Positions 30,071 to 41,513 of a DNA stretch of 54,059 bases are shown here, piece by piece. The notes under the pieces are model-generated. The model searched no databases. It saw only the letters and a program-made list of their open reading frames with translations, and had not been told where the DNA came from. A program made the position numbers and the translations under genes. Within the stretch, counting starts at the first letter, position 1. Each line of letters starts with the position of its first letter. This stretch comes from an uncultured Bacilli bacterium (GTDB lineage Bacteria; Bacillota_I; Bacilli_A; RF39; UBA660), in contig CALVOV010000007.1 of NCBI GenBank assembly GCA_944350385.1, positions 1 through 54,059 on the forward strand, read 5' to 3'.

Positions 30071-30739
30071 CTATTCTACACTAGATAATTCTGCTATATA
30101 GATTGTTTGTGTTTTTGAATCATTATTAGTACAAGTAACTAATGTTAATGTTGTTTTATCATAATTTCTATATATAGCAATAGTACCTGTTTTTTCTTGT
30201 TTATATATTTTGGTAATAGTATAAGTATATTTTTTACCATTGTAGGATATTTCAACAATATCATTTTTTTGTAATTTATAAAGATCATTAAAAAATGCTT
30301 TCCAACCAGTTCCTGAGTGAGCTGCTATGATAAAATTACCTTTCTCAACATCAGGATAAGATGAACCAGGAACAATATAAATATTTTTTTCTACATCATT
30401 TTCTAAAGACTCTATCGAAAAAAATCCTTTTTCTAAATTTATTTTAGGAATATTTAAATATCCAATATATTTTTCTGTTTCGCTATTAGTTATGGATTCG
30501 GTTTTATCTTCCTCTTCTTTTGTTTTTTCATCTACTTCGATTGTAGCTGATTCTTTTTGTTCTGTGTATATGACATTAGCCATTTTATCAAAAGTTGTGA
30601 TTTTCATAGTTTGAATATAGTTATAAGAAAGAAAGAATCCTCCGATCATAATGACTATTGCACCAATTACTGCAGTCAAGTTAGGAGAGATTCTTTTTGT
30701 CATTTTATTATTTTGCTTTTTTACCATTCTTGTATACAT
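30071..30739 (-). CDS. Sortase (transpeptidase)
   Basis: A 222-residue sortase. An N-terminal anchor helix (about 20-42) is followed by an acidic linker, then the sortase barrel (about 90-222). Catalytic His is in FIIAAHSGTGW, Cys in TLTLVTCTNN (TLxTC); the Arg equivalent is not certain, because after the Cys the sequence runs DSKTQTIYIAEL. It resembles class D-type or small pilin-type sortases. The frame begins inside the adhesin gene (32-base overlap); internal ATGs at codons 5 and 13 are alternative starts and the ribosome sites do not decide. It probably anchors the adjacent adhesin, which carries a divergent VPDTS signal. Confidence 0.85.
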   Translation of the reverse strand: MYTRMVKKQNNKMTKRISPNLTAVIGAIVIMIGGFFLSYNYIQTMKITTFDKMANVIYTEQKESATIEVDEKTKEEEDKTESITNSETEKYIGYLNIPKINLEKGFFSIESLENDVEKNIYIVPGSSYPDVEKGNFIIAAHSGTGWKAFFNDLYKLQKNDIVEISYNGKKYTYTITKIYKQEKTGTIAIYRNYDKTTLTLVTCTNNDSKTQTIYIAELSSVE

Positions 30740-32237
30740 ATCCTAAACCTGATCCAATTATAGCAATACCAATGATTGTAAATAATAGACTGTTTGTTGA
30801 TGTATCTGGTACATAAATTTCTTTATAGTTTGCAAATTTAATTTGATATGAAATATGTTGATCATCTAAAGTGAATTCCATAACTTCATCACTTGTTTTA
30901 TATCCTGTTGGAGCTGATACTTCACTTAATGTATATTTTCCGTAAGCTAGCCCTGTAATTACATGTGCTTCTTCTGTTGTTGTAAATCTTTCTACTTCAT
31001 TTCCTTCAGAATCTTTTATTATCATAACTGCACCTGCTAATGGTAAACCAGTTTCTGAATCTATCTTTGTAATATTAACTACTGTATCTTCTTTTGGAGT
31101 ATTATAAAATTTAACAACTATTTCTTTTTCTGTATCAGAAATTGTAAAATCAACTACATCTGTACTTAATTGATAACCTACTGGAGCTTCTTCTTCTGAC
31201 ACTGTATAAGTTCCATAAGCTAAGTTTTTAATAATATGTGACTCAGATGTTGAAGTCCAAGATGTTACTACGTTTCCTTCACTATCTTTTAAAACTAATT
31301 TAGCACCTGGCAAAGGTTCTTCTGTTATTGAATCATATTTTGTAACAATTACTTCTGTAGTTTCTAATCCTAAATCAATACTTGTTGTTACTTTATCTTC
31401 AGTTGGTTCTATATCACCTGGTGTTACTTTTTGCATATTTTCATTAGATGGTGTATATTCTAAAGCTTTATAAATCATTCCATTAGCTGTAGCTTTTACT
31501 TTGATATTCAAAGAAGTATCATTTACATTTTTTGAAGGTACTTTGATAATTATTCCCTCTGTATTATTAAATGTTGTATCAACTTTTCCTGTTGTTGCTC
31601 CTACTATTTGAGTATTTTCTGGAGCACCTTCTAAACTCACTGTGTATGTATTAGCATTTGTATCTACATTTATTATATCGGATGTATAATAATCTCCATC
31701 TAAAGTTAAACTATTATTTTCTGTACTAAGACTAATTTTTGTAGAAGTATATCCTGTATCTTTTGCTTTTAATCCACTTTCTACTAAAGATTTTACGTAA
31801 CCTCTTAAATTATATTGATCAGCACCAGTTTCTTTAAAGATTTCTCCTAAGTTTGTTGAGCCTGTTGTTTCATCTAAATACCACCAAATTGCTGTTTGAG
31901 TAATGTAATAATCTTTTGATGCATCTCCAGTAAAACTTTTATTTGGAAAACCATTTAAAATTATATTAGCAATTCCTGCATCACGTTCACCTGTTAAAGT
32001 TGCAGTTGTATGCATTGTTGTGTTTTTTGCCATTTCAAGACAATACAAATATTTTCCACTTGTTGTAGTTTTTGTTGCAAAAGTTACTCCCCCAATATAA
32101 GCTGGAAGATCTTGCGCATCTCCTATTTCAATTGTATTTTGTACTGCAGAAGTTGACATTGTAACTGCAACTAATGCAATTGCAACTATAAGAATTAAAC
32201 CTAAATATTTTTTTGTTTTTTCAATAACTCTACTCAT
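30708..32237 (-). CDS. Surface adhesin with thioester domain, two Cna_B/SpaA domains and a sortase signal
   Basis: A 509-residue cell-wall adhesin. Signal peptide at residues 1-31. The thioester domain has YLYCLEM (Cys66) and YITQTAIWWY (Gln114), the pair that forms an internal Cys-Gln thioester able to bond covalently to host surface amines. A spacer follows (about 160-285), then two SpaA/Cna_B-type domains (about 292-381 and 385-472). Their isopeptide candidates are Lys300/Glu348-349/Asn379 and Lys391/Glu439/Asn470. The C-terminus has V-P-D-T-S (476-480), a hydrophobic helix and KNGKKAK: a sorting signal with Val in place of the usual Leu. The adjacent sortase is the likely partner. Strong promoter at 32268-32296 and a GGGGGAG ribosome site. 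Confidence 0.88.
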   Translation of the reverse strand: MSRVIEKTKKYLGLILIVAIALVAVTMSTSAVQNTIEIGDAQDLPAYIGGVTFATKTTTSGKYLYCLEMAKNTTMHTTATLTGERDAGIANIILNGFPNKSFTGDASKDYYITQTAIWWYLDETTGSTNLGEIFKETGADQYNLRGYVKSLVESGLKAKDTGYTSTKISLSTENNSLTLDGDYYTSDIINVDTNANTYTVSLEGAPENTQIVGATTGKVDTTFNNTEGIIIKVPSKNVNDTSLNIKVKATANGMIYKALEYTPSNENMQKVTPGDIEPTEDKVTTSIDLGLETTEVIVTKYDSITEEPLPGAKLVLKDSEGNVVTSWTSTSESHIIKNLAYGTYTVSEEEAPVGYQLSTDVVDFTISDTEKEIVVKFYNTPKEDTVVNITKIDSETGLPLAGAVMIIKDSEGNEVERFTTTEEAHVITGLAYGKYTLSEVSAPTGYKTSDEVMEFTLDDQHISYQIKFANYKEIYVPDTSTNSLLFTIIGIAIIGSGLGYVYKNGKKAK

Positions 32238-32952: not shown

Positions 32953-33175
32953 ATGAAAAAAATTGTCTGTTATATTTTATTTTATCTAGTAATTTTTATA
33001 TGTGCTTGTAGTGTTATTTTTACATTCAACACAAAAAATAAAGATGAAGAATTAACAAAAATAAAAGTAAGTGAAGTGGCGCATACTATTTTTTATGCCC
33101 CTATGTATGTTGCTTTAGAAAATGGGTATTATGAAGAAGAAGGACTAGATGTTGAACTTATTTTATCAAGTGGTG
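32953..33175 (+). pseudogene. 5' part of an interrupted ABC transporter substrate-binding protein gene
   Basis: The first 74 codons plus one base of an SBP of the NMT1/THI5 or NitT/TauT type. It has an N-terminal hydrophobic signal with a possible lipobox (ICAC), then KIKVSEVAHTIFYAPMYVAL and ENGYYEEEGLDVEL, the usual start of the mature domain. At 33175 the frame enters the mobile element and ends at a stop at 33190-33192 after a few element-coded residues. Joined to 39230-39996 it gives one continuous 329-residue protein of normal family length. GGAGG ribosome site; a TATAAT at 32925-32930 is a weak promoter candidate. While the element is integrated, no functional SBP can be made from this locus. 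Confidence 0.92.
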
Positions 33176-33186
33176 TGAATAAAATT
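33162..33186. other. attL, left junction of the element
   Basis: Host half TTTATCAAGT, crossover GG at 33172-33173, then element half TGTGAATAAAA. The bases GGTG are common to both junctions. The recombinase reading frame runs through this site on the minus strand. Confidence 0.85.
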
Positions 33187-34059
33187 ATTTAATCTAAAAT
33201 ATTCTTCTTCTGTAATTATTGCTTGATGAGTATTTGGTACTATAATCCAATGACTTTTATCTAAAAAAATTCTTTTTTGTGATTTATAACTTAATTTAGC
33301 TTGAGTTCCCTGAGTCATATTACCTGTATACATATAGTTATGTAATATTTGATAGACACTAGTTGTTGACCATTTGTGTTCATGAATATTTAGTTTATAG
33401 TCTTTTGGCGTTTGTATTTTTTTAGAATTCAATATATCTACTATTTCTTTTAAAGAATGTTTTTTTAATGCTAAATCATAAATGTTTCGAACAATCTTAC
33501 TAGCATATTGATCAATTACAATTTTATGTTTGTCATTTGAATCTTTCTTATAACCATAGCAAGCACTATTTCCAACAAATAACCCTTGCTTTTTTAAATT
33601 ATTAAGTATTGATCTAATTTTTTTTGAAGTATCTTTACTTTGCATATCGTTAAATAAAGCTTTGAATGGAGCTATGTCATTATTTGAGGAATTGCTCTTT
33701 GTATCAATATTATCTAATATTGATACATATCGAACTTTTTTCATTGGAAAATATTCTTCTAAGTAATAACCACTTTTTATATAATCTCTACCTAGTCTTG
33801 ATAAATCTTTAGTTACTACCATATTTATTTTTTTTTCCTCTATATCTTTTATTAATTCGTTGAATCCTGGCCTATTAAAAGTGGTACCGCTAAAGCCATC
33901 ATCAACATATTCCTTTTCTATTAATAGATTATTGTTCTTTATGTAATCAATTATTAAATTTCTTTGATTGATTACACTCTCACTCTCTGAGTTTTTATCT
34001 TTCAATAAATCTTCTTTTGAAAGTCTTATATAAATACCAACTTTATATATTGAAATCAT
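33166..34059 (-). CDS. Serine site-specific recombinase (short large-serine-type integrase)
   Basis: A 297-residue serine recombinase. The resolvase catalytic domain has Ser14 in GIYIRLSKED, the DDGFSGTTFNRPGF loop and DLSRLGRDY with catalytic Arg88/Arg91. The Recombinase domain follows (about 165-285: YGYKKD..., VYQILHNYMYTGNMTQG, KSHWIIVPNTHQAIIT). Large serine integrases usually continue 150-300 residues into a zinc ribbon and coiled coil; here the gene stops right after EEYFRLNNF. The last two codons and the TGA stop (33166-33171) come from host DNA beyond the crossover. In the excised circle the end would be THTCE-like: FIHT then Cys-Glu-stop. GGGAG directly abuts the ATG, an unusually short spacing. 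Likely function: integration and excision of the 33176-39229 element. Confidence 0.9.
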   Translation of the reverse strand: MISIYKVGIYIRLSKEDLLKDKNSESESVINQRNLIIDYIKNNNLLIEKEYVDDGFSGTTFNRPGFNELIKDIEEKKINMVVTKDLSRLGRDYIKSGYYLEEYFPMKKVRYVSILDNIDTKSNSSNNDIAPFKALFNDMQSKDTSKKIRSILNNLKKQGLFVGNSACYGYKKDSNDKHKIVIDQYASKIVRNIYDLALKKHSLKEIVDILNSKKIQTPKDYKLNIHEHKWSTTSVYQILHNYMYTGNMTQGTQAKLSYKSQKRIFLDKSHWIIVPNTHQAIITEEEYFRLNNFIHTT

Positions 34060-34090
34060 CTCCCTAAGAAAGAATATGAAAATAAAAAAA

Positions 34091-34116
34091 AAGAAATAAC
34101 TTAATTGTTACTTCTT
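34091..34116 (-). terminator. Terminator after the tasA-sipW-type operon
   Basis: A 10-bp stem with one mismatch (34091-34100 with 34107-34116) and a long T-tract on the minus strand. The recombinase lies beyond it, so it needs read-through or its own promoter, which I do not see in 34060-34090. Confidence 0.7.
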
Positions 34117-34117
34117 A

Positions 34118-34924
34118 TTAATTTAGTATTTCAATATTTTGATCATTCTTTTTATTCTTAGAGTCAACCTTTTCTTCTTTTACTTTTGACTTTAAATTTT
34201 CTTCTTTTTTAGAATCTTTTACTTTTTCTTCTTTTGTCTTGTTATTTTTTCTTTTATTTTCTTCTTTTTTGATACTATCAACATTTTCTTCTTTTTTTAC
34301 TTCTTCAGATTTTGTTTCTTTTATTTTTTCTTTCAAATTCTTTTTGCTTCTTATTGGAGAAACTTTCAAATATTTTCCTTTATCTATACGAACAATAGTT
34401 GTTTTATCAATGTCATTTAATATTTCTTCAGATATATCATCTTTTTTCTTTTTAGCTTTATTTTTAAGCTCTAAATCTTTTAATACTATTTCTAATGGAC
34501 ATAAGACGTTTTCATTTAATTTTATTATATATATGCATGCTTCTGAATGATCTAACAAAACAAAGCTACATGATTGTTCTTGCTGCTGGTAATAAATAGG
34601 CTTTCTTATCTCCATTTGAGCATCTACTAAATCTTCTATTGAATCTACTTTAATAATATTTTTTTCATCTAATTTTGGCAAATTTTTACTTTTAACTAAT
34701 ATTGAATCATATGTTTTTAGAATTTTTCTTACTTTACTTTGATATATAGATTCTACAGATCTATTATTTAAGATATAATTTATTAAAACTATAGCGCAAA
34801 TTATAGTAAATGTAATTGATATAATCATATAGTTAAGATATACATTGACATATAGAATATATGATAAAATTGCTAATGCTATTAATAAAATACTTAAAAC
34901 CCCTATTTTATACTCTTTTTTCAT
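34118..34924 (-). CDS. Two-helix membrane protein with a Lys/Glu-rich tail, SipW-locus partner (268 aa)
   Basis: Two adjacent membrane helices (about residues 5-50) are followed by a soluble domain (about 65-160). It contains RKILKTYDSILVKSKNLP, SIEDLVDAQMEIRKPIYY and CSFVLLDHSEACIYIIKL, a pattern I have seen in DUF5305-like proteins next to SipW-type peptidases; I am not certain of the family. Residues ~195-268 are low-complexity Lys/Glu. The frame opens at 34945 inside the peptidase gene, but GGAG precedes the ATG at 34924, four bases after the peptidase stop. The operon points to a role in processing or assembling the TasA-like protein. Confidence 0.7.
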   Translation of the reverse strand: MKKEYKIGVLSILLIALAILSYILYVNVYLNYMIISITFTIICAIVLINYILNNRSVESIYQSKVRKILKTYDSILVKSKNLPKLDEKNIIKVDSIEDLVDAQMEIRKPIYYQQQEQSCSFVLLDHSEACIYIIKLNENVLCPLEIVLKDLELKNKAKKKKDDISEEILNDIDKTTIVRIDKGKYLKVSPIRSKKNLKEKIKETKSEEVKKEENVDSIKKEENKRKNNKTKEEKVKDSKKEENLKSKVKEEKVDSKNKKNDQNIEILN

Positions 34925-34928
34925 ACTT

Positions 34929-36080
34929 CTACTCCTTATTAACAATTTCCTTTAACCATAAGTTAGGATAAGCCAAATATTTAATTTTAAATAATACTTT
35001 TCCTTTTATATCTTCAATAGTTAAGTTGATATTATCCTTACTATTGTTGGCATCTCCTTTTGTTATATAGTAATTCTTATTTTCATCTTCTTTGATTTCT
35101 ATTAATCTGTGAATAATTATTTTAGAACCATTTTTGAACACAATAATATCTCCTACATTTAAATCAGATTCATCAGTAATACTTTTATATATAACAGCAT
35201 CACCCTTATCTATTGTTGGAGTCATTGATTCTGATCCTATTCCAATTATACTATATGTAAATTTTCCCGATATCAAACCAACGAGTACTATAATAAATAA
35301 TACCATTGGTATATCACCAAATCTAAATGTTTTGCTTTCTTTTACTGGTTGAGATTCCTCTAATTTAATATCCAATGTTCTTGCAGAATACATATAAACT
35401 AGCGTTGGTAATAATATACCAATAACAGATGTTAAATACTCTCCTAAATCTGGTGCTATTGGCAAAATATTCATATATGTATCCATTATTAATCTATATA
35501 TTAATAATGGTTTTAAACCACCATGTATAGCTAAATAACTCATAGTGAAGTTCTTAATTATTATTGGAATTGCAATTGATGAAACTGCTTTAAATATAGT
35601 TTCAAAATTATATAATAAAATTGTTTTAAACCCCATACTTAATTCTAAAATTGTAATTAGTATAGTAACTATATAAAATATCGATTTTTTATCACTATTA
35701 GCACTCAAAATAGTATATCTAAATACTTCGATAGCTAAAATATAAATGATTGGGGCAATTATGTTCTTTAATATTAAATTAATATCAAAATAATAAGTAT
35801 TATGTATGTATCCTGTTACTACTCCTAATCCATAAGAAATTGCTAAAAATATCAACACTTCTGTTATTGTAATGCCAATAATCGATTTTTTTGTTTGATT
35901 TAATTTATCTTTTCTATATCCTAATAATAATATTGCTATAAAAGTAAATATTAATATTGTTGCTATATTAATGTAATCAGCAATGCTATTTTGACTATAT
36001 GACAAAAACAATCTATAGTATGCTACATATAATCCAAATATTACTAAAATAAATATATTATAATTCATTCTTTTTGCCAT
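34929..36080 (-). CDS. SipW-type (S26B) signal peptidase I with a polytopic N-terminal domain
   Basis: 383 residues. The first ~235 form about seven membrane helices. A further helix (about 258-275) leads into the peptidase domain: GSESMTPTIDKGDAVIY with nucleophile Ser285, IIIHRLIEI with His324 where typical bacterial SPases have Lys, and ITKGDANNSKD. A Ser/His pair is the hallmark of the ER/archaeal-like SipW branch. SipW itself has only two membrane helices and about 190 residues, so the N-terminal region is an extra membrane module. It is 14 bases after the TasA-like gene, whose signal sequence it most likely cleaves. Confidence 0.87.
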   Translation of the reverse strand: MAKRMNYNIFILVIFGLYVAYYRLFLSYSQNSIADYINIATILIFTFIAILLLGYRKDKLNQTKKSIIGITITEVLIFLAISYGLGVVTGYIHNTYYFDINLILKNIIAPIIYILAIEVFRYTILSANSDKKSIFYIVTILITILELSMGFKTILLYNFETIFKAVSSIAIPIIIKNFTMSYLAIHGGLKPLLIYRLIMDTYMNILPIAPDLGEYLTSVIGILLPTLVYMYSARTLDIKLEESQPVKESKTFRFGDIPMVLFIIVLVGLISGKFTYSIIGIGSESMTPTIDKGDAVIYKSITDESDLNVGDIIVFKNGSKIIIHRLIEIKEDENKNYYITKGDANNSKDNINLTIEDIKGKVLFKIKYLAYPNLWLKEIVNKE

Positions 36081-36094
36081 ATTTTTACCTCATT

Positions 36095-36652
36095 TTAGTC
36101 GGCTTGTACATAATTCAAATCTATTGTTAAATACAATTGTTGTGGTTCTAATGGTAGTTGGTCAACTGATAAGTCTTTTTCTAATTCTACTGTTACAAGA
36201 ATTTGTTTAGATTCTGAAGCTGATAATGTATCTCCTACTTCAATTGCTGTTCCATCAGCATATGTTACCATATAATTAATATATGCATCTTGCTCTGCAC
36301 TTATACCAGATAATGTTGGTGGAGTTGCTAATTTAGCATCAATTGTTCCATCATTTTTAATATCAGTATAAAATTTATAGTAACTTCCTGGTGCTAATAA
36401 ATTAATGTTATATTCAATATTTGCTGTATTTTCTTGAATTGTTGCTGGTTCTATTACTTCTGTATTATTTACATCTTCAACAATATTTTCAAAGTGAATA
36501 TCCCACTTAATTTGCCCAATTCCTCCTGAACCAAATATTTTCAATGTTGAAGAAAAATTAGCATACCCAATATTAATCAAAGTAAATAATAGTAATATAA
36601 TAATTACAATAAGTTTATAACTATTTTTTTCATTTTCATCTTCTTTATTCAT
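36095..36652 (-). CDS. TasA/camelysin-like secreted protein with SipW-type signal
   Basis: A 185-residue secreted protein. A short charged start precedes a hydrophobic stretch ending INIGYANFSSTLKI; the Y-A-x-F-S pattern at the cleavage region is typical of SipW-dependent signal peptides. The mature ~155 residues are beta-rich, with LLAPGSYYKFYTDIKNDGTIDAKLATPPTLSG, resembling the jelly-roll of TasA/camelysin proteins that form extracellular fibres. No sorting signal. First gene of a three-gene unit with the dedicated peptidase. GAGG ribosome site 5 bases before the ATG. Confidence 0.78.
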   Translation of the reverse strand: MNKEDENEKNSYKLIVIIILLLFTLINIGYANFSSTLKIFGSGGIGQIKWDIHFENIVEDVNNTEVIEPATIQENTANIEYNINLLAPGSYYKFYTDIKNDGTIDAKLATPPTLSGISAEQDAYINYMVTYADGTAIEVGDTLSASESKQILVTVELEKDLSVDQLPLEPQQLYLTIDLNYVQAD

Positions 36653-36731
36653 AATAACCTCGCATCATTATTATCCAGTATATAATATATATACCACGAT
36701 TTAAGTTATTTTTGAAGAAGTTATAAAAAAA

Positions 36732-36757
36732 AGATTCACACTTTACAATGTGAATCT
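36732..36757 (-). terminator. Terminator after the secreted 256-aa protein
   Basis: A perfect 9-bp stem (36732-36740 with 36749-36757) is followed by a T-tract on the minus strand. Confidence 0.85.
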
Positions 36758-36767
36758 ATATTTTGAA

Positions 36768-37538
36768 TTACCAATTTATAAAAGCTCTAGCTTCAGCAAA
36801 TTGAATGCTATCATAATAATTACTTATTGAACTATTTAAATTAATTCCTCCAACACTTACACTGTAATTTTGTGCATTTTCATAACTAATAGGTGTTGTA
36901 GCATGTGAATAATCTCCAAAAGCTGTTAATTCAGTAATTGTTGCATTAGTGTTTTTTTCAACATCAAAATACATAGTGATTTTCAAAGTACTTAAACTTC
37001 CTGACATTAATTTAAATACTGTTCCAGCACCATTGTTTCCAATTTTTGGAGTATGAACCATAGATGTCACACAATTTCCAACACTAAAGCAATAATATTG
37101 GCTATAACTTACCGTAGAGGCAATTCTTACATTTGAATACATACCAATAGCAATAATATCATAACTTCGAATGGCGGGCATTGTTTTCCAAGTTAGAATA
37201 TTTCTAAAACGATAATAAGAGCTATTTTGAAGAATTGCGGTAGTCATCTTTTTATATGTTGTTTCTGTAATACCAGTGTTTCTTGTTTCAATTTTTGTTT
37301 CGTTAGCTTGATTATATTCTTCTTCACTTACTTCTACAGAATAACTTTGAGAATTTGGAACAGTTAGTGAACTATAAGAATTTAGTTGTAAATTATCTCT
37401 TGTTGTTATAGTCTTATAATATTTGGTGGTTTCGGCTATAACTTCCATTTTTTCTGTATTTTGTAATTCTTGGGCATTTACTAAGCAAGGTGAAAATGTA
37501 ATTAACATAAATATTATTATTTTTATATATTTTTTCAT
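36768..37538 (-). CDS. Secreted protein of unknown function (256 aa), partner of the XRE regulator
   Basis: A clear signal peptide (MKKYIKIIIFMLITFSPCLVNA, cleaved before QE). The mature part is rich in Thr, Ser, Tyr and Asn and looks beta-structured. It has a Cys pair in YYCFSVGNCVTSM that could form a disulfide. SQSYSVEVSEEEYNQA is a recognisable repeat-like segment, but I cannot name the family. It starts 11 bases after the XRE/membrane regulator, so it is co-expressed and may be the ligand or target of its extracellular domain. Ends in its own terminator. Confidence 0.65.
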   Translation of the reverse strand: MKKYIKIIIFMLITFSPCLVNAQELQNTEKMEVIAETTKYYKTITTRDNLQLNSYSSLTVPNSQSYSVEVSEEEYNQANETKIETRNTGITETTYKKMTTAILQNSSYYRFRNILTWKTMPAIRSYDIIAIGMYSNVRIASTVSYSQYYCFSVGNCVTSMVHTPKIGNNGAGTVFKLMSGSLSTLKITMYFDVEKNTNATITELTAFGDYSHATTPISYENAQNYSVSVGGINLNSSISNYYDSIQFAEARAFINW

Positions 37539-37549
37539 TTGATACTCCT

Positions 37550-38341
37550 TTAATAAAAAATTTTATTATTTGAAAACTTTTTCTCAATCTTGATTGGAAT
37601 AACAATAGAACCTTTATTATCTTTTCCTGTATAATAAATTATAATCTTAGCTTTAATATTCTTATTGTCATCTAATATATAATTAGCTATTTTATTGTCT
37701 TCACTGATTGTAATATTAAAATCTTTTATTACATCACTTAATTTTTCTTCAAAAAAATATTTTTTAGTGTTAAATACTTCAATTTTTCCTAATTTTAATA
37801 TTAAATTAATGTTATCAACTCTCAACTCTTTCGTAGTGTTTGTTGATGAATCAGTATATAGCATATTAGTTATAATAATTCTATTATCTTTTTGATTGCT
37901 TGCTATTAATCCTTCTAGGAAAAAATCATCACTTCCACTTGATAATTCATAAACAAAGCACTTATTATAATTTGTTATTACATACGTTATAGAAAACGTT
38001 ACTGTAACTAATAGTAAAATTGATATTAAAATAAAAATTACTTTTGTATACTTCTTTTTAAAGAAATTATTATATGCACCAATTCCTGAAACTGTAATTT
38101 CATTAACTGTTTCTTTAGAAATGGTGTTTTGCATTTTTTCACCAGTTAAGATTTCTGATACACTTATTTCTAGTATCTTACTTAACTCATTCAATATAGA
38201 AATATCCGGAGCACTAATTCCACGTTCCCATTTAGAAACAGCCTTACCGCTTACTCCTAACATATCTCCTAGTTGATTTTGTGTAAGTGCTTTTTTCTTT
38301 CTCATTTCTGAGATGATTTTTCCCATCTTCTGTAAGTCCAT
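37550..38341 (-). CDS. Membrane-tethered XRE-family transcriptional regulator
   Basis: 263 residues. The N-terminal HTH_3 domain (about 3-60) has MRKKKALTQNQLGDMLGVSG and KAVSKWERGISAPDISIL. A linker follows, then one membrane helix (about 98-122), then about 140 extracytoplasmic residues (YELSSGSDDFFLEG...). This is a one-component, membrane-spanning regulator. The frame opens at 38371, but AAGGAG fits the ATG at 38341 (MDLQKMG). Operonic with the secreted 256-aa protein. It could control the element's cargo or excision; targets are not visible. Confidence 0.82.
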   Translation of the reverse strand: MDLQKMGKIISEMRKKKALTQNQLGDMLGVSGKAVSKWERGISAPDISILNELSKILEISVSEILTGEKMQNTISKETVNEITVSGIGAYNNFFKKKYTKVIFILISILLLVTVTFSITYVITNYNKCFVYELSSGSDDFFLEGLIASNQKDNRIIITNMLYTDSSTNTTKELRVDNINLILKLGKIEVFNTKKYFFEEKLSDVIKDFNITISEDNKIANYILDDNKNIKAKIIIYYTGKDNKGSIVIPIKIEKKFSNNKIFY

Positions 38342-38470
38342 TACTACTACACTCCTTTTTGTCTTTTTCAAAATTCATGTTAACACACTTTTTTTGAGTT
38401 TTAAAGTATGATTACAGAAAATGTTCGGTAGAAGAAACTTCGCCTCCTTTCAATTTTAAATTTAAAAAAT

Positions 38471-38493
38471 AGATGATTGAACTTCAATCATCT
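38471..38493 (-). terminator. Terminator of the secreted 171-aa gene
   Basis: A 9-11 bp stem around AACTT (AGATGATTG with CAATCATCT) is followed on the minus strand by a T-tract. It separates the 171-aa gene from the XRE regulator. Confidence 0.8.
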
Positions 38494-38529
38494 AAAACTT
38501 AACATAAAATTTGCCGATAAATGAATGAC

Positions 38530-38561
38530 CTATTGGTCGATTTTTGTAATCTATCAGTCGA
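38530..38561. repeat. Pair of CTATnnGTCGA direct repeats, 21 bp apart
   Basis: CTATTGGTCGA (38530-38540) and CTATCAGTCGA (38551-38561) share 9 of 11 positions, start to start two helical turns apart. They could be a regulator-binding site. Situated between the 171-aa gene stop and its terminator. Confidence 0.3.
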
Positions 38562-38571
38562 GTTGAATTTA

Positions 38572-39087
38572 TTAATCACATTTTACAAAATAATATGTTC
38601 CTTCCACTTCTGTTAACCAAGAAAATAATGACCCATTATATATTTCTATTCCATATATTATCTCATCTGATTCTATCAATTTTGTTTCTGTTGAAATACC
38701 ATCTATTACGGGTATTCTAACACATTGTTCTTTTTTACCAGGACACTTTCCTTTTTTTGGTATAAAATAAATTGTTGATTTTTTTCCATTAGCTTTTATG
38801 CCTTTTTTAACAGCAATTGTTTTATATGATTTTAGCCAATCTTTCGAATATTTAAATCTTATATCAAATTTATCTCCTTTATGACCTTCTACTTCAACTT
38901 TTAAATAATCAACTTCCATTTTTCTTTTTGTGTCCATAATTATTTTATTATCTCCTCCACCAGCAAGAAATTCATGAAAGTCCACTTTTGAAACAATCTC
39001 ATCAGCAAAAACATTTTTAATTAATATTAAAAATATCATTCCTAATAATAATTTAAGTATTGTAATCTTTTTATCTGTTAATTCCAT
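38572..39087 (-). CDS. Small secreted protein of unknown function (171 aa)
   Basis: The open frame reaches 39147, but GGAG 7 bases before the ATG at 39087 gives a classical signal peptide: MELTDKKITILKLLLGMIF..., cleaved after VFA. The mature ~145 residues contain a Cys pair in KGKCPGKKEQCVRIPV and many Lys/Gly residues. It resembles no family I know. Outermost gene at the right end of the element, with its own terminator. Confidence 0.6.
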   Translation of the reverse strand: MELTDKKITILKLLLGMIFLILIKNVFADEIVSKVDFHEFLAGGGDNKIIMDTKRKMEVDYLKVEVEGHKGDKFDIRFKYSKDWLKSYKTIAVKKGIKANGKKSTIYFIPKKGKCPGKKEQCVRIPVIDGISTETKLIESDEIIYGIEIYNGSLFSWLTEVEGTYYFVKCD

Positions 39088-39214
39088 TTTTTTCTCCTTT
39101 GTATTACTCATAGTTGTTGGCCAAAATTTATATAAGCAATAAAACAAATATACTAACTTAACTAATTTATTTAAACCATTTATTAAGCGAATTGGGTCGA
39201 CTACTAGTTTATTT

Positions 39215-39237
39215 TTTTATTCACAGGTGCTGATAAA
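39215..39237. other. attR, right junction of the element
   Basis: Element half TTTATTCACA, crossover GG at 39226-39227, then host half TGCTGATAAAG. Joined to the left element end, the arms read TTTTATTCACA-GG-TGTGAATAAAA apart from one base at the outer edge of the window shown here. This is the reconstructed attP dyad. Confidence 0.85.
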
Positions 39238-39996
39238 GTAACAGCTGCTGTTTTGTCTGGAGATGCTGATATTGGTTTTTGTGGAAGCGAAGCAACGATC
39301 TATGTATATAATGGTGGAGAAAAAGATTATTTAAAAACATTTGCTCAATTAACGCAAAAAGATGGCTCTTTTATTGTTTCAAGAGAAAAAATTAATAATT
39401 TTAAATTGACTGATTTAATTGGTAAAAAAATTATAGGTGGTAGAGCTGCTGGAATGCCAGAAATGACATTAGAATATATTATAAAAAAGAATAATATTAA
39501 TATTGATTCTATAGAAATTGATACTAGTGTAGCATTTGCTGCTATGAGTGGATCTTTTATTGGTGGTAATGGAGATTTTGTATCACTATTTGAACCTACT
39601 GCTTCAGAAGTAGAAGAACAAGGTTATGGGTATGTTGTTGCTTCACTAGGAGAATTAGGTGGTGTTTTACCTTACACTTCTTATTCAGCCAAAACTAGTT
39701 ATATAGAAGAAAATCCTGAAATAATTTCAGCTTTTACTAGAGCAACTCAAAAAGGTTTAGATTATGTAAATTCACATGATGCTCGTGAAATTGCTAAAAT
39801 AATCGAGCCACAATTTTCTGGAACTGCTATAGAACAGATTGAAAAAGCTGTTGATAGTTATAAAGATATTCAAGCCTGGCCTAATTCTACCTACTTCACA
39901 GAGAATTCTTTCAATCATTTACAAGACATTATGTTAGATTATGGTATCATCGATGAAAAAGTAAGTTATGAGAAGTTAATTTATGATCAAAAATAA
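39230..39996 (+). pseudogene. 3' part of the interrupted ABC transporter substrate-binding protein gene
   Basis: In frame with 32953-33175 after element removal. It continues as ADKVTAAVLSGDADIGFCG, then GKKIIGGRAAGMPEMTLEYI and FTRATQKGLDYV, the two-lobed body of an NMT1/THI5-like binding protein. A TTG at 39253 could start a truncated product, but without a signal peptide it would be useless for transport. It overlaps the ABC ATPase gene by 14 bases, so the downstream genes have lost their original promoter unless the element supplies one. Confidence 0.92.
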
Positions 39997-40741
39997 AATT
40001 ATTTTATTAGTAGATAAATTAAGTAAAAAATACCAAGATTTAAATGGTGAAATAGTTGCTTTAGATAATGTAACATTCAATTTATACGAGAAAGAATTTA
40101 TCTCTATTGTTGGTCCTAGTGGTTGTGGTAAATCTACTATTTTATCTATTTTATCTGGCATAGATAAAGATTATACTGGCGATGTAGTTTATAAAAAAAA
40201 TTTAAAAGTTGGATATATGTTACAAACAGATTCTTTGTTTCCTTGGAGAACTATTTTGGATAATTGTCTATTAGGATTAGAATTAAATCATAAATTAAAT
40301 AACGACAGTAAAGAATATGTCATTTCATTATTAAAAAAATATGGCTTAGAACAATTTATAAATAAATATCCAGATAATTTATCTGGTGGTATGAGGCAAA
40401 GGGTTGCTTTAATTAGAACCCTAGCTTTAAAGCCGGATATTCTATTGTTAGATGAGCCACTTTCAGCTTTAGATTCACAATCAAGATCAATTATAGGAAA
40501 GGATATTTTTAATATTATAAAAAATGAAGGAAAAACTGCTATAATGGTTACTCATGATTTACAAGAGGCTTTAAGTGTTTCTGATCGTATTATTGTTTTA
40601 ACAAAAAGGCCAGGTAGTGTAAAAAAAATATATAATATAGAATTTAATAATCTGGATTTTAATTCAAGAAAATTAGAAAATAATTTTAATAAATTACAAG
40701 ATGAAATATGGAGGGATTTAGATGTCGACAATAACTCCTGA
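39983..40741 (+). CDS. ABC transporter ATPase, NitT/TauT/ThiZ type
   Basis: A 252-residue nucleotide-binding subunit. Walker A GPSGCGKST, Q-loop MLQTDSLFPWRT, signature LSGGMRQR, Walker B ILLLDEPLSALD and the switch His in MVTHDLQEAL are all present. The FPWRT Q-loop and C-terminal TKRPGSVKKIYNIE are typical of nitrate/sulfonate/taurine/pyrimidine transporters. It overlaps both the SBP 3' end and the permease. The substrate is undetermined; sulfonates, nitrate and thiamine precursors are the family options. Confidence 0.92.
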   Translation: MIKNKIILLVDKLSKKYQDLNGEIVALDNVTFNLYEKEFISIVGPSGCGKSTILSILSGIDKDYTGDVVYKKNLKVGYMLQTDSLFPWRTILDNCLLGLELNHKLNNDSKEYVISLLKKYGLEQFINKYPDNLSGGMRQRVALIRTLALKPDILLLDEPLSALDSQSRSIIGKDIFNIIKNEGKTAIMVTHDLQEALSVSDRIIVLTKRPGSVKKIYNIEFNNLDFNSRKLENNFNKLQDEIWRDLDVDNNS

Positions 40742-41513
40742 GCATAAAAAATTTCTTTTAAAAATTAAAAAAGAAAAAATCTTAATTAATTTTTGTAGAA
40801 TATTATTATTACTTTTATTTTTAATTGGTTGGGAACTTTTAGCTAAATACAAAATCATTAATACTTTTTTAACTAGTTGCCCTTCTGAGATTATCAAAAC
40901 TATTTGTACTTTGATAAATAATGGAAGTTTATTTCAACATATAAATATTACTGTTTACGAAATTATCATAAGTTTTATTATTTCATTTATAATAAGTTTT
41001 TCTCTAGCAACCTTAATGTGGATATTTCCTGTTTTTTCAAAAGTATTAGATCCCTATCTGACAGTACTTAATTCATTACCTAAAGTATCCTTAGGTCCTC
41101 TTATAATTATTTGGGCTGGTGCTGGTATTAGATCAATTATTCTAATGGGATTATTAATAAGCATATTTGTTACTACACTAAATATCTATAATTATTTTTC
41201 TAATACTGATTATAAATTTATCTATTTAATGAAAAGTTTCCATGCTAAAAAAAGAGAAATATTTTATAAAGTAATTATTCCTAGTAATTATAAAAATATA
41301 ATTAATGCTCTAAAAATAAATCTTTCTATGACTTATATAGGAGTAATTATGGGAGAACTGCTAGTATCTAAAAATGGTCTTGGTTATCTTATAACCTATG
41401 GTTCTTCAGTATTTCAAATTGATTTAGTTATAACTAGTGTATTTATCTTATGTATTTTGGCGTATGTAATGTATTTTTTAGTCGAATTACTTGGTAAAAA
41501 ATTATGTAAATAA
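40722..41513 (+). CDS. ABC transporter permease, NitT/TauT/ThiX type
   Basis: A 263-residue permease with six hydrophobic helices and the BPD_transp_1 EAA-type loop (KSFHAKKREIFYKVIIPSNYKNIINALKINLS). The DPYLTVLNSLPKVSLGPLIIIWAG segment is characteristic of the SsuC/TauC/ThiX group. GGAGG 7 bases before the ATG; it overlaps the ATPase gene by 20 bases. The ATPase and permease are intact, only the binding protein is broken. Confidence 0.92.
   Translation: MSTITPEHKKFLLKIKKEKILINFCRILLLLLFLIGWELLAKYKIINTFLTSCPSEIIKTICTLINNGSLFQHINITVYEIIISFIISFIISFSLATLMWIFPVFSKVLDPYLTVLNSLPKVSLGPLIIIWAGAGIRSIILMGLLISIFVTTLNIYNYFSNTDYKFIYLMKSFHAKKREIFYKVIIPSNYKNIINALKINLSMTYIGVIMGELLVSKNGLGYLITYGSSVFQIDLVITSVFILCILAYVMYFLVELLGKKLCK

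Follow-up and report, generated by a model that had tools for sequence, protein, structure and literature searches.

A serine-recombinase element carrying a putative surface-fibre operon within a transporter gene of an uncultured Bacilli bacterium: a candidate reversible gene-intervening element

Analysis of a 54,059-nucleotide stretch of DNA (the window) from the genome of an uncultured Bacilli bacterium (G000), whose lineage is to our knowledge known only from metagenomes, revealed a serine-recombinase cassette seated at a GGTG core within the gene of an NMT1/THI5-like ABC substrate-binding protein (SBP), with an operon for a putative surface fibre among its genes. Judged from its substitution pattern, the C-terminal half of the interrupted SBP gene is under purifying selection like that on uninterrupted copies, and the gene is not decayed. 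With moderate confidence, we propose that the cassette is a gene-intervening element comparable to skin or gin, reversible and inherited vertically, with the fibre operon as a passenger, and that it probably jumps out again, restoring the SBP gene rather than destroying it. The transporter gene bears the marks of repeated, long-lived interruption without loss of function, and a reversible interruption of this kind is directly testable in gut communities.

The element and the transporter gene that it splits

The element occupies positions 33176-39229 (6,054 bp), its edge being ambiguous within the 4-bp GGTG core that is common to both junctions between the SBP halves and the element. The left attachment site, attL (33172-33184), comprises the core at 33172-33175 and the left inverted repeat TGTGAATAAAA at 33174-33184, and the right one, attR (39215-39229), comprises the right inverted repeat TTTTATTCACA at 39215-39225 followed by the core at 39226-39229. 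The element-side sequences TTTTATTCACA and TGTGAATAAAA form a perfect inverted repeat and the target-side sequences an imperfect one, TTATCAAGT-GG-TGCTGATAA; inverted-repeat halves around a shared core are the pattern expected at serine recombinase sites. The right-end repeat is identical in the three species carrying the element (G000, G002 and G004), the non-coding DNA around it being diverged, and a motif near the right end, GAATTnnGTCGAC (39189-39201), is also invariant in the three. G002, G004 and G020 also have an insertion at this site. In G001 and G005 it is empty, G005 having exactly the rebuilt attachment sequence and G001 a close version of it. No empty site was found in the G000 assembly, nor any circular junction in viral contigs, G000 or the sister genomes. 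A PHROGs search detected no phage structural or transfer genes in the element; strong matches were limited to the recombinase and a helix-turn-helix regulator, with two other proteins marginal (near E 0.0035), and no recombination directionality factor was recognised among the element genes.

Both halves of the SBP gene are encoded on the plus strand. The N-terminal part (32953-33175) starts with a lipoprotein-type N-terminus and extends to the GGTG, covering residues 1 to about 74; from the core its frame reads on into the element and stops at 33192 (ORF 32953-33192). The C-terminal part (39226-39996; ORF 39253-39996) is open, matches NMT1 with an E value of 1e-14, and is followed on the same strand by the genes for the ABC ATPase and permease of this transporter (39983-41513). 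Joining the flanks in silico at the core afforded a complete SBP gene of 329 codons with no stop, and the two halves are contiguous at this site in G001 and G005. A thioester/SpaA-domain surface protein gene with a sortase gene (30071-32237) adjoins the transporter and stays beside it in G001, G002 and G005. No riboswitch over threshold was found near the transporter genes.

Among the carriers, the dN/dS of the C-terminal half was 0.127-0.185 (about 0.13-0.19), with values of 0.127-0.141 for G000 versus G002 and G004, and intact SBP copies gave a median of 0.195 over 198 uninterrupted pairs of similar divergence. A simple simulation of neutral evolution, run at 0.45 substitutions per site, left 0 of 1,000 runs stop-free. 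For the N-terminal half, the dN/dS between G000 and G002 was higher (0.42 on 72 codons); its start, lipobox and frame are kept in both genomes. The C-terminal half has neither a signal peptide nor a good start (a TTG lies within the gene), and its frame is closed by an element-borne stop just upstream, so that it cannot easily work alone. The simplest reading of the preserved coding is that excision rebuilds the SBP gene often enough for selection to act on it. An earlier reading of the window, made from the letters and open reading frames without database searches, had tied the fibre operon to the loss of a transporter. With both halves open and the C-terminal half constrained like uninterrupted copies, this description was not supported, and what was taken for a loss is more likely a switch.

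The fibre operon and the other genes of the element

The fibre operon consists of three minus-strand ORFs whose ends overlap or nearly abut, and whose coordinates were confirmed. The 383-aa product of 34929-36080 was assigned as a SipW/archaeal-type signal peptidase I (S26B, Ser/His). It matched TIGR02228 with 89 bits (cut-off 51.9) and Peptidase_S26 above the cut-off, contains SESM, IIHR and KGDANN as the Ser, His and Asp motifs, and carries a hydrophobic N-terminal domain of about 250 extra residues before the peptidase domain; against the Bacillus SipW model NF046067 (E 8.5e-15) it reached 54.8 bits versus a cut-off of 190, which is below equivalog level. The TIGR02228 match, the motifs and the split SBP gene bear out the earlier proposal that a SipW-type peptidase is carried by an integrase element lying within a transporter gene. 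The gene at 34118-34945 encodes a 275-aa DUF5305 membrane protein (PF17231, 50.1 bits, cut-off 29) with a C-terminal tail rich in Lys and Glu.

The first gene of the operon (36095-36652) encodes a TasA/CalY/Abp-like secreted protein of 185 aa with a SipW-type signal (YANFSST) in its N-terminus (...LINIGYANFSSTLKI). On its own, this protein had no family match in profile searches. A profile built from 21 homologues matched AbpX (9sj2, E 1.4e-4; 9rhp, E 4.2e-4), and among the 21 members four weakly matched camelysin (PF12389) and one matched TasA. The predicted model (pLDDT 66.6) has one N-terminal helix and eight strands, and its comparison with known folds gave weak similarity to AbpA (7ueg, Z 6.5 over 130 residues) and TasA (8aur, Z 5.7 over 116 residues), with Z scores not above those of unrelated beta-sandwiches. 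The AbpX profile match speaks for the suggested TasA/camelysin-like substrate; membership of the TasA superfamily is probable, not proven.

Judged from their families, the CalY/TasA-like subunit, its dedicated SipW-type peptidase and the DUF5305 partner would make a surface filament or coat. The arrangement is like that of TasA-SipW-TapA in Bacillus and of the AbpA/AbpX archaeal bundling pili, in which a SipW/archaeal-type peptidase likewise lies beside a secreted protein with a SipW-type signal, a beta-sandwich there and a predicted one here (PMC9674648). It differs in that the window substrate falls below every TasA/camelysin family cut-off, the peptidase has an added membrane domain, and the third gene encodes DUF5305 whereas the Bacillus counterpart is TapA; for the window operon, filament formation is a prediction.

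A bidirectional terminator-like hairpin (36732-36757) separates the fibre operon from the upstream genes, which are also on the minus strand. These encode a 256-aa secreted protein (36768-37538) that belongs to no recognised family and is conserved in G004 (49%), an XRE-type helix-turn-helix regulator (37550-38371; HTH_3, E 5.7e-13) that has a hydrophobic segment, is kept in G002 and G004 and possibly controls the element, and a 191-aa secreted protein (38572-39147) with copies in G002 and G004. This last protein was found in 2 of 193 genomes among the matches listed, which did not show G002 or G004, and one weak relative turned up beyond the three carriers. On the other side, the recombinase gene follows 58 bp behind the fibre operon on the same strand, and its expression may thus be tied to that of the fibre genes.

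Loci combining the peptidase, a CalY-like protein and DUF5305 are common and chromosomal across the family, where copy numbers of two to four are frequent, and often adjoin very large surface proteins. The G000 genome has a second SipW/CalY-like locus (L021 6840-12751, G000:C16), in which CalY-like domains open proteins of 596 and 501 aa, and G001 also holds such loci. The nearest, orthologous peptidase/DUF5305 pair is that of G001, which has no recombinase and is located elsewhere in the chromosome. Since the trio is common in chromosomes and its nearest pair is free of a recombinase, capture from the chromosome is the probable origin of the operon. The idea of an unusual mobile cargo was not supported, in view of the chromosomal, multi-copy trios and the further loci in G000 and G001. 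At the interrupted locus itself the operon was not found without the recombinase, the recombinase-free pair of G001 sitting at another locus. Peptidase loci next to recombinases in G011 and G209 were considered as mobile copies and set aside, as no element boundary could be established around the trio. In the literature searched, no paper joined SipW with a serine recombinase or SipW with DUF5305.

Inheritance of the element and its shortened recombinase

G002 and G004, which belong to the same genus as G000, have the same gene order at the same site, showing that the arrangement is not due to chance. The G004 copy lies on one contig that ends inside the DUF5305 gene, before the recombinase gene; the G002 copy is divided over two contigs, with the CalY-like gene on one and the HTH regulator on the other, and some of its genes are unreadable. 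The dS values of element genes (0.80-1.48) were similar to those of flanking host genes (0.66-1.41), though values near 1 are close to saturation, and the element has thus probably diverged together with its host. The placements in the peptidase tree, with G000 near G004, then G002, and G001 outside, can be reconciled with the species tree. A species tree with the three carriers as a clade was rejected (AU p 0.0026), the empty-site G005 falling among them, in a tree whose single-branch support is low (32-79) and whose matrix is gapped; a precise loss of the element from G005 is suggested.

The non-monophyly of the carriers would also be expected of an ordinary mobile cassette inserted recently and separately in each species, which would have knocked out a transporter whose decay is not yet visible and would make the fibre operon transferable. 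The same explanation could draw on the fact that in G020, G235, G104, G229 and G396 this site (site A) has been hit by different cassettes, which have recombinases of full length and a different cargo. We consider it unlikely, because the element genes are as diverged as the surrounding host genes, the gene order is shared, the recombinase is truncated identically in G000 and G002, and the peptidase tree does not conflict with the species tree. The transferability proposed in the sequence-only reading was not supported, on similar grounds: the carriers are species of one genus, their element genes show host-like dS, and the C-terminal half of the recombinase is absent from both readable copies.

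The recombinase (33166-34059, minus strand) is a short serine recombinase of 297 aa with Resolvase (PF00239) and Recombinase (PF07508) domains (E about 1e-21) and a match to the phrog_95 integrase (E 2.2e-66); its last codons are supplied by the target gene. This 297-aa protein and the 296-aa protein of G002 align end to end with the part of full-length relatives that comprises the catalytic and Recombinase domains, and stop at the same place, inside the inverted repeat. Both have no zinc ribbon or coiled coil, the C-terminal half that is present in all six full-length relatives aligned (461-510 aa). Large serine recombinases use this half for DNA binding and direction control, and in view of its absence the activity of the short recombinase is uncertain. 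The two short proteins are 79% identical with a dN/dS of 0.131, a substitution pattern typical of a working protein kept by selection. A naturally shortened recombinase kept in this way would bear on the question of which parts of the enzyme are needed for excision. We rejected a split-integrase design, in which the other end of the element would supply the C-terminal half, because that end has no open frame and translation of the circular form would give ...HTCE-stop. A structure of the recombinase predicted from the single sequence (pLDDT 37) was discarded. The G000 genome has further serine recombinases at G000:C24:258-1127 and G000:C25:16171-16656, of which one is full length (562 aa) and the other partial.

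The missing zinc ribbon and coiled coil, together with the failure to see an excised form in the assemblies, might point to a fossil element, in which the recombinase no longer recombines DNA and is retained for some other purpose, for instance regulation, and the C-terminal SBP half makes a separate useful product. This explanation appears rather improbable, as that half has no signal peptide or good start of its own, the att repeats are conserved although they would be useless in a fossil, and the N-terminal half is still intact in its start, lipobox and frame in G000 and G002. An artefact of metagenome assembly is hardly credible: the G000 assembly has 50 contigs, the window being one of them, and 5.95% contamination, and the G002 and G004 contigs break within the element, but the same arrangement with clean att junctions recurs in three separate genome assemblies.

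Under our preferred explanation, that of a vertically kept and reversible element, a serine recombinase once integrated the element at the GGTG core in the SBP gene of an ancestor of the genus, as the att structure and the shared site show. The element would since have been inherited vertically in G000, G004 and G002, which the matching divergence supports, and its recombinase has been cut down to the catalytic and Recombinase domains and is kept by selection, as its dN/dS of 0.13 shows. If the element is excised between its two GGTG cores, the SBP gene is rebuilt precisely, as joining the flanks in silico shows, and the preserved coding implies that excision does take place, be it in cells generally or in some cells or life stages. 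The integrated state would keep the transporter off with the element genes expressed, and excision would turn the transporter on.

Precedents and recurrent splitting of the SBP gene

Most excisable gene-intervening elements described so far interrupt sporulation or nitrogen-fixation genes, with further cases in comK and DNA-repair genes. Precedents for such elements with serine recombinases are sigK-skin, spsM-SPbeta and gerE-gin (PMC5025042, PMC4191935, PMC5595907). The element gin in gerE of Bacillus cereus ATCC10987 is, like the window element, a non-phage serine-recombinase element that splits a coding gene, and in both the reading frame is restored when the flanks are joined precisely at a short core common to them (PMC5595907). 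Whereas gin is 28.6 kb long, has three recombinases and has been demonstrated to excise in sporulation (PMC5595907), the window element is 6 kb long, has a single, shortened recombinase, interrupts a transporter gene and carries a fibre operon, and its excision is inferred. Excision likewise rebuilds the host gene in the case of skin in Clostridium difficile and SPbeta/spsM in Bacillus subtilis, which, unlike the window element, are prophage-like, have full-length recombinases and known directionality factors, and interrupt sporulation genes (PMC5025042, PMC4191935).

The SBP gene was present in 306 of the 386 family genomes searched and is split in at least about 75 of them, roughly a quarter of the family genomes having it, a count made from the fragments listed in which a few may be contig breaks. 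The splits fall mostly at about four sites, near residues about 72, 97-112, 148-152 and 193-204. Ten split genes, one made up of four pieces (G235) and three made up of three, were joined in silico, and all ten gave complete reading frames; the joining method favours stop-free junction frames, so this result shows that the pieces are intact and does not give exact crossover positions. In G235 (G235:C2:60000-79500, L090), three different serine-recombinase elements lie in one SBP gene with four coding pieces, and at L091, L096 and L097 the gene is likewise interrupted two or three times per genome by different elements; here too the pieces join into complete frames.

Where cassettes other than the window element occupy its insertion site, their genes are unrelated to its cargo; they include, under names taken from sequence reading, a probable acyltransferase gene in G235, G104 and G393 and a putative alpha/beta hydrolase gene in G396. 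Unrelated site-specific large serine recombinases can share one conserved coding target gene (PMC10083194). The target genes described there are disrupted (PMC10083194), whereas here selection still acts on the SBP pieces, and up to three elements can lie in a single gene. The unusual part is the retained coding function of the split pieces. More tentatively, and at somewhat less than even odds, we suggest that the SBP gene may be a hub for excisable serine-recombinase 'DNA introns' acting as reversible switches, at about four fixed sites and up to three per gene. The window version would be one with a minimal recombinase lacking the zinc ribbon and coiled coil, and with a fibre operon coupled to it so that fibre state and nutrient uptake exchange.

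Elements elsewhere in the family appear to carry metabolic gene sets, whose names come from sequence reading only: an element in the SBP gene near residue ~150 (L062 3857-9928, G007:C1) has a putative arginine deiminase pathway set with transporters, and one at the same SBP position (L063 4455-11744, G013:C1) has a putative polyamine-type ABC transporter set with an agmatine-deiminase-like gene. The ABC ATPase gene of a similar transporter is split near codon 142-154 by another serine-recombinase element, at L077 6255-10443 (G002:C31) and L067 5556-5975 (G009:C12).
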